From Leptospirillum sp. (lineage in GTDB: Bacteria; Nitrospirota; Leptospirillia; Leptospirillales; Leptospirillaceae): a DNA stretch of 64,000 nt. The position numbers and the translations under genes were made by a program. The DNA lies in the NCBI GenBank assembly GCA_027315205.1, contig DAHUYM010000001.1, forward strand, positions 1 to 64,000, given 5' to 3'. The notes beneath the pieces are model-generated. The model searched no databases and had not been told where the DNA came from. It saw only the letters and a program-made list of their open reading frames with translations. The number at the start of each line of letters is the position of its first letter. Position 1 is the stretch's first letter. This document shows, one piece after another, positions 1,610 through 6,616 of this stretch.

Positions 1610-2653
1610 ATGAACCGATTGGAAAATTTCCACGAAAGCCGGAACGATCTCCTGGGCTTTCTCGGCAGCATCCTGGAAGGCGTGATCTCGGAAGAACATC
1701 TTGGAGCCGGAACGGACGCCCTCAGAAAACAATTGAAGCCGTTGATCCGGGCATATCCGTTCCTGGACCTCTGCTACGTCCTCAATCCCGATGGGCGGCA
1801 GATCGGCACGAACATCGTGGGTGCCCGGTGTTTCCCGAGCCTCGGAAAGGAAGGAGACGGAGAAGACCGAAGCCAGCGCCCCTATTACCGGCAAGCCAGG
1901 GATTCCGCGGGAAGCGTTTTGACGCCTCCTTATTTCTCGTCTGCGACCCGGTCCCTATGCGTCACGGTCTCCACACCGGTCCGGGACGAGGACAATCATC
2001 TCCTTGGGATCGTTGTCGCCGACATCGATTACGAGCAGGTCATGACGCTTCTCGAAGACGACCACCGGAGAAAAGCCATGGAACCCTTCTTCAAGGGGAT
2101 CTATTCGGTTTTCTCCCTGGGACTCCTCGTCGTGAGCGTGGGGCTTGCGATCCAGGCGTTCCATTCTCTTCGCCAGGTGTTCGGCAATCTCACCGAAATC
2201 GCCGACACCACTCCGTCGTTCCAGGCGACGATCCTCCTGACCCTGGCCTTGGCCATCTTCGACCTCGCCAAGACGATATTCGAGGAGGAGGTCCTTCTCA
2301 GGAAAGACGTCCGGCGCCACAGCGCGACCCGAAGAACGCTCACCCGTTTCATCGCCTCCATCCTGATCGCCATCTCGATCGAAGCCCTGATGCTCGTCTT
2401 CAAATTCGCGATCCAGGATCCCACGCACCTGAACGAAGCCGGTTGGCTCGTATTCACCGTCGTCGGACTTTTGATCGGACTGGGCGTCTACGTCTATCTG
2501 GGAGCCCGTGCGGAAATCCTCCTGACCCGGAACAAGGCCCGGGAAAAACAGCATGCGTTCGGACCGGTCATCGACGCCCGGAAGGTCGGAAACCCTTTGC
2601 GGATGAAACCCCGGACGGCTTTGTCCGGAGAGATTCCTTCCGTTCGGGATTGA
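1610..2653 (+). CDS. PDC/Cache-like sensor domain membrane protein
   Basis: 347 residues. The N-terminal ~160 residues contain the features of a PDC (Cache) sensory fold: LCYVLNPDGRQIG, RPYYRQARDSAGSVLTPPYFS, then CVTVSTPV and LGIVVADIDYE. These match the Y-x8-10-P-Y and DI-dy signatures of Cache domains. About four hydrophobic segments follow (near residues 164-188, 206-225, 246-264, 282-301). No kinase, GGDEF or methyl-accepting domain is attached, so any output is unknown. The start at 1610 has GGGG six bases upstream; an extension to 1520 is possible but lacks a site. The terminus after the last segment is basic and probably cytoplasmic. Confidence 0.7.
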   Translation: MNRLENFHESRNDLLGFLGSILEGVISEEHLGAGTDALRKQLKPLIRAYPFLDLCYVLNPDGRQIGTNIVGARCFPSLGKEGDGEDRSQRPYYRQARDSAGSVLTPPYFSSATRSLCVTVSTPVRDEDNHLLGIVVADIDYEQVMTLLEDDHRRKAMEPFFKGIYSVFSLGLLVVSVGLAIQAFHSLRQVFGNLTEIADTTPSFQATILLTLALAIFDLAKTIFEEEVLLRKDVRRHSATRRTLTRFIASILIAISIEALMLVFKFAIQDPTHLNEAGWLVFTVVGLLIGLGVYVYLGARAEILLTRNKAREKQHAFGPVIDARKVGNPLRMKPRTALSGEIPSVRD

Positions 2654-2676
2654 CCCGGAAAGAATATTCAGAAAGC

Positions 2677-2734
2677 GTCCAATATTTTTAGTTATATTGG
2701 ACAATATGGTTTGTTAACGGACCATATTGTCCAA
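2677..2734. repeat. Two overlapping perfect inverted repeats
   Basis: GTCCAATAT (2677-2685) pairs with ATATTGGAC (2694-2702). TTGGACAATATGGT (2697-2710) pairs with ACCATATTGTCCAA (2721-2734) across a 10-base loop. The two share 2697-2702, so as RNA they are mutually exclusive; as DNA they present three copies of a GGACAATAT-like half site. There is no U-run, so neither is a normal terminator. An operator or a switching leader both fit. Confidence 0.6.
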
Positions 2735-3047
2735 GTCGGTCCTAAAAAGGTCCCGTTGGTGTTCCAGGACGCGGTCAAGCGACGGGTATCATGGAACTCC
2801 GGATTCACTTTTAGGGCACAAAGCCCTTTCGTCTATCGATGGGTTTGTCTTGGGCACAATTTGAAATCTCTTGAGAAGAATACCCTTGGTTTCTCGGCAA
2901 TCGTCCAACCCGGGATGGCCGAAGCGATGGAAGGGAGACAGAGGGAACGGTGGACGGGATTGTGGGGAATCCCGGTCATTGCGGCCGCCGATGGCACGAA
3001 CAACATCAATGACCCACAATAATAAGGCCCCTAAAAAGGGGCCTTTT
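2735..3047 (+). ncRNA. Candidate structured RNA ending in an intrinsic terminator
   Basis: No convincing protein is encoded here, yet the stretch ends in a strong plus-strand terminator. It contains complementary segments: CGTCCA (2902-2907) with TGGACG (2951-2956), AGGGC/GCCCT near 2815-2830, and a long stem. In that stem ATTGTGG (2959-2965) and GTCATTG (2975-2981) pair consecutively with the single uninterrupted stretch 3007-3020. No gene on the plus strand follows for 2.8 kb, so it is either a free-standing RNA or the 3' untranslated region of the gene ending at 2653. It does not look like tmRNA, SRP RNA or RNase P RNA. Confidence 0.3.
3024..3047 (+). terminator. Rho-independent terminator
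   Basis: A perfect 8-bp stem AAGGCCCC (3024-3031)/GGGGCCTT (3038-3045) with a 6-base loop and a T-run on the plus strand. It closes whatever transcript covers 2680-3023. Confidence 0.8.
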
Positions 3048-3111
3048 ATGTGAGGGAACAAGATCGGCGAAAGGATCTCGCGAACCGTGACCCCCACCCG
3101 ATAACAGTATA

Positions 3112-3182
3112 CCCCCCGCCCTGGGGGATTGCCGGGATAATCTTTCCCGGTTGCATGAAAACTGTCAGACGCATAATGCGTC
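3112..3182. repeat. Three consecutive small hairpins
   Basis: CCCCC/GGGGG (3113-3117/3123-3127), CCGGGA/TCCCGG (3132-3137/3145-3150) and GACGCA-TAA-TGCGTC (3168-3182) follow each other within 71 bases. The last is followed by CCTTTTCG on the plus strand. They lie between a plus-strand terminator and the 3' end of a minus-strand pseudogene and may act as terminators or be part of a structured RNA. Confidence 0.5.
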
Positions 3183-3416
3183 CTTTTCGAGCAGAGGACA
3201 TATCCACCGGAGACCGAATGCCGTGTTTCAATAAGGGATCGGCCTTGCCCGACCAAGACCATCTACTGTGTCTCAGAATATCCTCAGGCCACATCCGAAT
3301 GTTCGATGTCCCGGATCATGATTTTGGGAGGAGTGTCCATGCACGTTCTTCCCTGGCTGTTCCAAAGGGTTCCCACGAAGATCCGGAGCGGAGAAACTCT
3401 CCCGAACCCCGTCCAG

Positions 3417-3829
3417 TCAATGTTCGACATCCGGGTTCAGGTTCTGGGCGATGGTTTTCGAGAGATTGTTGAACTCTCTTTCGATAACCATCAGCAGATC
3501 GTCCATGCTGAGAATCCCGATGACTTTGCCTTTCGAGTTGACGACCGGAACCCTCCGCACCCGTGCCCGGCCATGATCCGGGCGGCTCCCATGACACCTT
3601 CATCTTCCTTACAGGGTCGTCACGTGATGGGTCATGACGATCGATACGCCCGTGGATGCCGGATCCTTGCCGGGGCTCACGACCTTTACCACGATGTCCC
3701 GATCCGTCAGGATCCCCAGGGGAGCGGACTTGCTGTCGGGAACGACTATGGCTCCCACGTTCATCTCCTCCATCTTTCTGGCAACGTCCCCCTGACCATG
3801 TCGCCTTCCCACGCCATCACGACATGCAT
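3417..3829 (-). pseudogene. CBS-domain pair protein broken by three 1-base indels
   Basis: Piecing frames together gives a normal two-CBS protein of about 137 residues. It reads VARKMEEMNVGAIVVPDS, GILTDRDIVVKVVSPGKDP, VMTHHVTTL, then EDEGVMGAARIMAGHG, then VRRVPVVNSKGKVIGILS and MDDLLMVIEREFNNL. Three single-base lesions separate the pieces: a missing G in the G-run before GDVARK (near 3790), an extra T just after THHVTTL creating TAA (near 3609), and a missing G in GHG-VRR (near 3560). The start is near 3829 (ATGCATGTC). Such proteins usually bind adenine nucleotides. Either the gene is dead or the sequence carries errors in G-runs. Confidence 0.75.
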
Positions 3830-3971
3830 TGTGCAAAACTCCCTGATCGAAATAAAAGACCTCCCCAAAGATTGCCCGTCTCCGGTTTCATTGTTCCCCG
3901 CTACGGAAAAAGTTCCGGCCCTTTCGCGGAGCGATGGCTTCCAGGCACCTTCTATTCTCCGGTATACCGGT

Positions 3972-4262: not shown

Positions 4263-4865
4263 TCATCCCATTCGTTCCGGACGTTCCCACGACAAAGGCC
4301 CCTCTTTTCCGATCGCCCCCGACACCTCGTCCAGCACGATGTCAAGCAGAGCGCCTCCGTGGATGGGTCTCTCTCCCTCGTGATAGAGGGCCGCATGTTG
4401 CCGGACCCGCTCCCAGACGAACTCGGGATCGATCCCGAAGAGTTCGATCAAACCGAGGGCGATTTCTTTCGAAAACCGGAGGAGATCGATATCCTGCTCC
4501 CATGCCCCTTTGCGAAGAAGCATGCGGGGATAAAGACGGATAAATCCCCCTTTTCCCGTTTCTTCCAAATCGATTGGAAGAGGTTTTCCCGTTTCACCTT
4601 CCACATCGTCGAAGACCGACGCCCTGACGGCAAATCCCCGGATCCCGTTTCCGATATCGGTGCCGGCCTTCCTCGAAAGAATCAAGACGGTGTTGGGACA
4701 CCGATAGGCCATGGCACCGCCTTCCTTTTCCGCGTTATGAAAATGCTCCCAGAATCGAACGGCACCCGCAACACGGGCCGGTTGGCTCACCAACTGCGTG
4801 CTATGGCCATAGTCAAAGAGGCGCACAGGACCTCCCACTGCCGAACGCATTTCTTTCTGCCCCAT
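4263..4865 (-). CDS. Hypothetical protein
   Basis: 200 residues of ordinary composition with an acidic second half; no signal peptide or membrane segment. Recognisable stretches include AYRCPNTVLILSRKAGTDIG and ALGLIELFGIDPEFVWERVR, but no family comes to mind. The start at 4865 follows the stop of the upstream gene by 18 bases and has only a weak ribosome site. Its stop TGA is in the same frame as the downstream Cys-rich open frame. It is supported mainly by operon position and by the length of the frame. Confidence 0.45.
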   Translation of the reverse strand: MGQKEMRSAVGGPVRLFDYGHSTQLVSQPARVAGAVRFWEHFHNAEKEGGAMAYRCPNTVLILSRKAGTDIGNGIRGFAVRASVFDDVEGETGKPLPIDLEETGKGGFIRLYPRMLLRKGAWEQDIDLLRFSKEIALGLIELFGIDPEFVWERVRQHAALYHEGERPIHGGALLDIVLDEVSGAIGKEGPLSWERPERMG

Positions 4866-5884: not shown

Positions 5885-6616
5885 ATGCCCGTCCTGCGAA
5901 TCGTTCTTTTTCTCGCAATGTCTTCGTTGCTGGTTCTGACCGGCTGCACCTCGTTTTTTTCCGAACTCGGGAAGTCCGAAAGCTGTCCGACAGCCAAGAC
6001 CCCCTATCAGATTCCCGAGGGTTTCTCGCGGGTGCAGGCCAGATCCCGCGGACACATCGACATCTTGATCGACCACGTGTTTGTCGGACGCTCGCCGATG
6101 GACAAGTTGATCCCGTCCCATAAGAACCCCCGGACCGCCGATGTCGAAGTCGGAGGACAGACGTATCCGATCATCAATTACTGGGGAGAGTTCTCAGAGT
6201 ACAACACCAACAATTTCGACTTCCGCAACGGAACGACGGTAAAGCTCGGGACCTTCCTCTCCGACGGGGCTCATGACGATTTCGATTCTTCCTCCTGCAA
6301 CATGGGCCACTACGGATCCGTTCCCCCCGGCAAGACCCGATTGATCATCCATAGCAGCCCCGAAGGCCTTTTGGTCTACATGGGCGACCGGTCCGTCGGA
6401 AAGACGCCGTTGGACATCCTCGTCTCCGCGTCTACGAACCCTCCTCTCCTCGTTTTCATCCTTCCGGACGGGAAGCGACTGACCGACGAGGCGTTCAGGA
6501 TCATGCTCCTGGAAGGGGACACCCTCAAGGTCTACCGGGACGTCTCCGGAGAAACGGGCGCCGCTCCTCCCATAAATCCCGGTGTCATGCAACCGCCGAT
6601 CGTTCCCATGTACTAG
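5885..6616 (+). CDS. Lipoprotein with a PEGA-like segment
   Basis: 243 residues. A signal sequence ends in the lipobox LTGC (residues 18-21), so Cys21 would be lipidated. GGAGGAG stands seven bases upstream. Near residues 158-178 the sequence GLLVYMGDRSVGKTPLDI resembles the PEGA motif (short beta-rich surface segments with a small residue-Val-x-G-TP core); an earlier HIDILIDHVFVGRSPMDKL looks like a second copy. It is probably exported to the periplasmic face of a membrane. Function unknown. It is monocistronic and convergent with the LpxH-like gene. Confidence 0.75.
   Translation: MPVLRIVLFLAMSSLLVLTGCTSFFSELGKSESCPTAKTPYQIPEGFSRVQARSRGHIDILIDHVFVGRSPMDKLIPSHKNPRTADVEVGGQTYPIINYWGEFSEYNTNNFDFRNGTTVKLGTFLSDGAHDDFDSSSCNMGHYGSVPPGKTRLIIHSSPEGLLVYMGDRSVGKTPLDILVSASTNPPLLVFILPDGKRLTDEAFRIMLLEGDTLKVYRDVSGETGAAPPINPGVMQPPIVPMY

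Follow-up and report, generated by a model that had tools for sequence, protein, structure and literature searches.

A putative minus-strand small RNA gene in a Leptospirillum contig, with counterparts in four genomes of the same Nitrospirota family

The stretch of DNA analyzed here (64,000 nt of the Leptospirillum sp. contig DAHUYM010000001.1, hereafter the window) carries a Cache-domain gene at 1520-2653 on the plus strand, beyond which lie the features collected in Table 1. Directly after the stop of this gene there are two overlapping AT-rich inverted repeats (2677-2734), one formed by GTCCAATAT and ATATTGGAC (2677-2702) and the other by TTGGACAATATGGT and ACCATATTGTCCAA (2697-2710/2721-2734). 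The two have TTGGAC in common and are thus mutually exclusive; neither is followed by a T-run, and no further copy of either was found in the genome. The first credible plus-strand ORF downstream begins at 5885, in keeping with the gap of 2.8 kb to the next plus-strand gene given in the first-pass annotation of this DNA. On the minus strand the next ORF (591-1463) is located beyond the oppositely oriented Cache-domain gene, and no minus-strand gene in the window is placed downstream for control by an RNA. Two ORFs covering the region were rejected as protein genes: 2711-3022 (+) has no Pfam family above cut-off and no phage tblastn match, and 2789-3262 (-) has no Pfam family above cut-off. A plasmid origin of 2640-3110 was also discarded, as no match was found.

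Table 1. Features at the locus, with positions in the window
Feature	Position	Strand	Basis
Candidate small RNA gene, ~80 nt	3018-3100	-	R2 covariance match and two-hairpin fold
Predicted RNA ends	5' near 3097-3101; 3' in T-rich tail near 3016-3020	-	
Predicted 5' hairpin, closed by GTGGGGG (3097-3091) and CCCTCAC (3056-3050)	3050-3097	-	Fold
Single-stranded linker between 5' hairpin and terminator, ATAA (relatives: GCAA)	3046-3049	-	Alignments
TATACT, a -10-like box with 8 bases between it and GTGGGGG	3106-3111	-	Sequence
Intrinsic terminator hairpin, AAGGCCCC TTTTTA GGGGCCTT, then ATTATTGT	3024-3045	-	Terminator scan
Same hairpin read on plus, where it may terminate the 1520-2653 gene (bidirectional terminator)	3024-3045	+	Sequence
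Stem of the first-pass annotation (2959-2965 and 2975-2981 with 3007-3020)	2959-3020	+	Present in sequence
CBS-domain gene split over two frames, apparently broken	3417-3836	-	Pfam CBS in 3420-3560 and 3612-3836
Uncharacterized protein gene without Pfam match	4263-4865	-	ORF

The first-pass annotation had proposed that the plus strand of 2677-3047 may encode a structured RNA, so far undescribed, that ends in a terminator of its own. The pairings on which it was based are present: the reverse complement of the 14-base segment 3007-3020, ATTGTGGGTCATTG, corresponds exactly to ATTGTGG (2959-2965) followed by GTCATTG (2975-2981), and CGTCCA at 2902-2907 is complementary to TGGACG at 2951-2956. Such a pairing of 14 contiguous nt with two blocks of 7 nt was obtained in 117 of 20,000 dinucleotide shuffles of 2732-3022 (0.6%). 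When the window was divided into 425 overlapping tiles of 300 nt, 5 contained one, two of them around this site; the arrangement is mildly unusual, and only modestly so since it was chosen after the fact. The plus-strand RNA itself was not borne out. Folding of 2733-3022 does not differ from that of dinucleotide shuffles (z -0.1 on plus, +0.4 on minus), and 2880-3022 gives a z of -1.2 on plus. The full interval reaches z -4.55 on plus and -4.07 on the opposite strand, and because 2733-3022 is unremarkable, the value of -4.55 is ascribed to the terminator and the AT-rich repeats at 2677-2734. Neither a relative of 2640-3022 nor any homologous sequence keeping the 2959-3020 stem was found in 40 related genomes, and the stem shows no excess folding energy. 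What stands of the proposal is a predicted structured RNA that carries a terminator. It would be encoded on minus (~3100-3018) and has a different stem, and the putative conserved element lies largely outside the 2677-3047 interval.

When 40 relatives were searched at the DNA level with 2640-3060 as the query, only query bases 385-419 gave a match, in four Nitrospirae MAGs (G010, G011, G012 and G019; contigs JAKADN010000005, JAKBXW010000025, JAKAWK010000009 and JAMCWM010000008) belonging to another genus than that of the window. The matching piece, 31-35 nt in length and present in one copy per genome, consists of the terminator and what comes after it. This hairpin, which reads AAGGCCCCTAAAAAGGGGCCTT on the plus strand, had been annotated as a strong intrinsic plus-strand terminator; the hairpin is real, but the terminator scan calls a Rho-independent terminator on the minus strand only, the strand of the candidate RNA, with T-rich tails. 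The plus-strand tail after GGGGCC, TTTTATGTGA, contains 6 T of 10 bases in the window, and across the five homologs the 10 bases past the GC stem hold 6-8 T on minus versus 5-6 on plus. The window hairpin, loop included, is identical to those of G011 and G012, and the pattern AAAGGCCCCN{3,6}GGGGCCTT has a single match in the genome, at this terminator. Single-copy GGCCCC terminators were also observed behind a cytochrome-like gene, with a C-terminus of WPDPTKTP or similar, in G014, G016, G006 and G013 (L028, L030, L031 and L032); their stem resembles that of the small RNA, and the locus differs. Because such terminators follow an unrelated gene, similarity of the stem would be insufficient proof of homology, and the argument for it leans mostly on the loop and linker shared by the members, together with the closing stem and the -10 spacing.

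In the four relatives a promoter-like unit was recognized that consists of TTGACA or TGGACA, 16 bases, one of TATATT, TATTGT, TACATT or TATTCT, and 6 bases, followed by GTGGG (ATGGG in G011, a difference of one base). The RNA order there is a hairpin closed by GUGGG/CUCAC, the linker GCAA, the terminator AAAAGGCCCCUUU(U/G)UAGGGGCCUU and a T-rich tail, and equivalents of the 5' hairpin occur in all four genomes (z -1.9 to -5.4). When the four MAGs are compared pairwise, identity is 96-100% in the terminator, 52-79% in the hairpin and linker and 51-66% in the promoter segment; in the flanks on both sides it is 42-47%, versus 44% for shuffled sequence. The element thus appears as a conserved island amid random flanks, the conservation apart from coding genes by which a small RNA would be recognized.

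A covariance model (R2), built only from the four genomes of the other genus with the window left out, matched 3103-3017 on the minus strand with 36.5 bits (E 1.5e-7 genome-wide). The next match in this genome has 19.7 bits, and the best non-member across 148 genomes of the phylum has 30.8 bits. The calibration of R2 is rough and optimistic, and because chance terminator matches reach 25-31 bits, the margin of the window over background is ~6 bits; the window copy nevertheless scores above all background. When the terminator-free 90 nt upstream were compared with the four relatives, only one of 5,000 shuffles reached the score of the window (a tie) and all but 3 of 5,000 random window stretches were beaten, a result which is supportive rather than a strict probability because the four references are related. 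The element has so far been found in five genomes, that of the window included, all in one Nitrospirota family, and its distribution is patchy: it was not found in the complete or near-complete relatives G002, G003 and G006. Searches for further members with the covariance model returned only marginal terminators (<31 bits), scanning a wider set of genomes for the sRNA pattern returned the same four MAGs and six unrelated chance terminators, scanning viral contigs for it returned none, and no further copy was met upstream of the tRNA-Pro/sigma-factor genes of other genomes.

The two-hairpin fold is predicted in all five members. Standard pairs make up 89.6% of the stem cells in the five sequences on minus versus 80.9% on plus, and at one closing position every member shows G-U on minus, which on plus becomes A-C throughout. 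Measured against shuffles, the 5' hairpin has a clear stability advantage on minus in 4/5 members, G019 being the exception (z -2.5 on minus and -0.6 on plus for the window copy). The promoter-like boxes of the four relatives are located directly 5' of the hairpin on minus, as is the TATACT of the window, and the wobble pairs and the position of these promoter-like boxes point to the minus strand as that of the predicted RNA. Pairs with changes on both sides number four, which was equalled by 21-26 of 500 shuffles (~5%) for a set of only five sequences, and the terminator helix does not vary among the five members; covariation across them is suggestive only.

The window copy departs from its relatives in some respects. 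No convincing -35 box was recognized upstream of its TATACT, the interior of the 5' hairpin has a different pairing, and the closing stem gains a G-C pair where the relatives show A-G. The copy has a weak -35 and could be decaying. At 3113-3128, at the expected promoter spacer, the window contains a CCCCC-loop-GGGGG inverted repeat (minus) which was not seen in the four relatives. The surroundings differ as well. In G010, G011 and G019 the RNA adjoins tRNA-Pro(CGG), with a sigma-factor gene beyond, and in G012 it lies ~5 kb from the tRNA, the two being separated by an ATPase-like gene and other genes. Past the 3' end of the RNA, sequence reading identified an oppositely oriented Hsp20-like gene in G010 and G011, and the Hsp20 gene of G012 was confirmed by Pfam. 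In the window, where broken genes are present in its neighborhood, the RNA adjoins the split CBS-domain gene and the uncharacterized gene, the product of which has relatives of 35-40% identity, in several copies, near the RNA in G010, G012 and G019. The orientation of the RNA relative to neighboring genes is not preserved.

Taken as a whole, these observations indicate that the window probably carries an undescribed, freestanding small RNA gene of ~80 nt on its minus strand. A related reading holds that the small RNA is real in the four MAGs and that the window copy is a decaying relic. We regard this as somewhat unlikely: the lack of a -35 box, the altered inner hairpin, the neighboring CBS-domain gene split over separate frames and a position away from the tRNA-Pro/sigma-factor locus of G010, G011 and G019 are all consistent with decay, but the copy has an intact terminator, linker and closing stem as well as an intact -10 spacing, and the closing stem even has a G-C pair in place of the A-G of the relatives. 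It is quite unlikely that nothing more than a bidirectional terminator of a common type, conserved or convergent, is present and that the resemblance upstream of it is due to chance. Single-copy GGCCCC-stem terminators do occur elsewhere in the family, such as those of the cytochrome-like gene, and chance terminator matches reach 31 bits; such an account leaves aside, however, the conservation of the promoter region and 5' hairpin between random flanks, the terminator-free upstream resemblance that beats nearly all shuffles, the loop and linker in common, and the single copy per genome.

The other two readings concern different transcripts. A plus-strand RNA, either separate or transcribed from the 1520-2653 gene, might cross 2677-3023, fold and end at the hairpin, as a structured RNA or 3' UTR; the exact pairings, the TTTT after the hairpin on plus and the whole-interval z would agree with this. 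It is nonetheless improbable, as 2733-3022 folds no better than shuffles, the stretch has no relative in the 40 genomes, orthologs of 1520-2653 have unrelated 3' flanks, and the terminator scan prefers minus. A hairpin followed by a terminator also has the look of an attenuator, but a leader or riboswitch-like attenuator is very improbable with no nearby downstream minus-strand gene in the window, and the same applies to a small protein gene, which is disfavored because the member lengths (~78, 80 and 84 nt) differ out of frame; a conserved start or stop is likewise absent.

For the candidate small RNA gene, RNA polymerase is predicted to start near 3100 on minus, to copy a ~48-nt 5' hairpin, a short A-rich linker and the terminator hairpin, and to stop near 3018, which would yield a free RNA of ~80 nt, as judged from sequence and conservation. 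The hairpin at 3024-3045 may act in both directions and also terminate plus-strand transcripts of the 1520-2653 gene, which could then have a 370-base 3' UTR, possibly plain and unstructured. The RNA is most likely regulatory and independent of Hfq and ProQ, since neither Hfq (PF17209) nor ProQ (PF04352) was detected in any of 21 genomes of the family with searches in which the positive controls worked; CsrA is present in 19 of the 21. The constant parts of the element are the closing stem, linker and terminator, and the 5' hairpin loop varies; this faintly suggests that protein recognition, or pairing through the linker or terminator, may be likelier than a conserved 5' seed. More speculatively, and we would call it doubtful, the element could represent a lineage-specific Nitrospirota RNA family, independent of Hfq and ProQ and located near stress-protein genes, in which the terminator hairpin serves as a recognition element held by its sequence and not only by its pairing. 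The locus offers a concrete, testable sRNA candidate in bacteria for which the literature search found no sRNA study and in genomes without detectable Hfq or ProQ, and it illustrates how a terminator spotted on one strand can point to a gene on the opposite one.

A literature search on Leptospirillum with the terms small RNA and sRNA found no such RNA described, the terms being met in the papers checked only in a reference or an annotation count, and Rfam 15 contains no family that matches the window element or its relatives at the gathering score. The suhB/mmgR family (RF00519), which also comprises a short sRNA with a terminator, gave a weak match over 3011-3081 (-), but at 14 bits versus a gathering score of 41 (E 3.4) and with no match at the element in the four relatives, membership is ruled out. 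The CsrA-sequestering RNAs of the CsrB/RsmZ type would suit the presence of CsrA in most genomes of the family and an Hfq-independent mode of action; capture of CsrA is not supported, however, because the window RNA (3100-3018) contains no GGA, and the GGA motifs of the relatives are mostly in the 5' stem arm. The closest likeness is to intergenic trans-acting sRNAs in general, with which the candidate shares a length of ~80 nt, a freestanding position, promoter-like boxes, a Rho-independent terminator and the lack of an ORF, and from which it differs in that no Hfq or ProQ was detected in its genomes and no conserved single-stranded seed is apparent. The candidate is new and narrowly distributed, and the kind of element it represents is very familiar.
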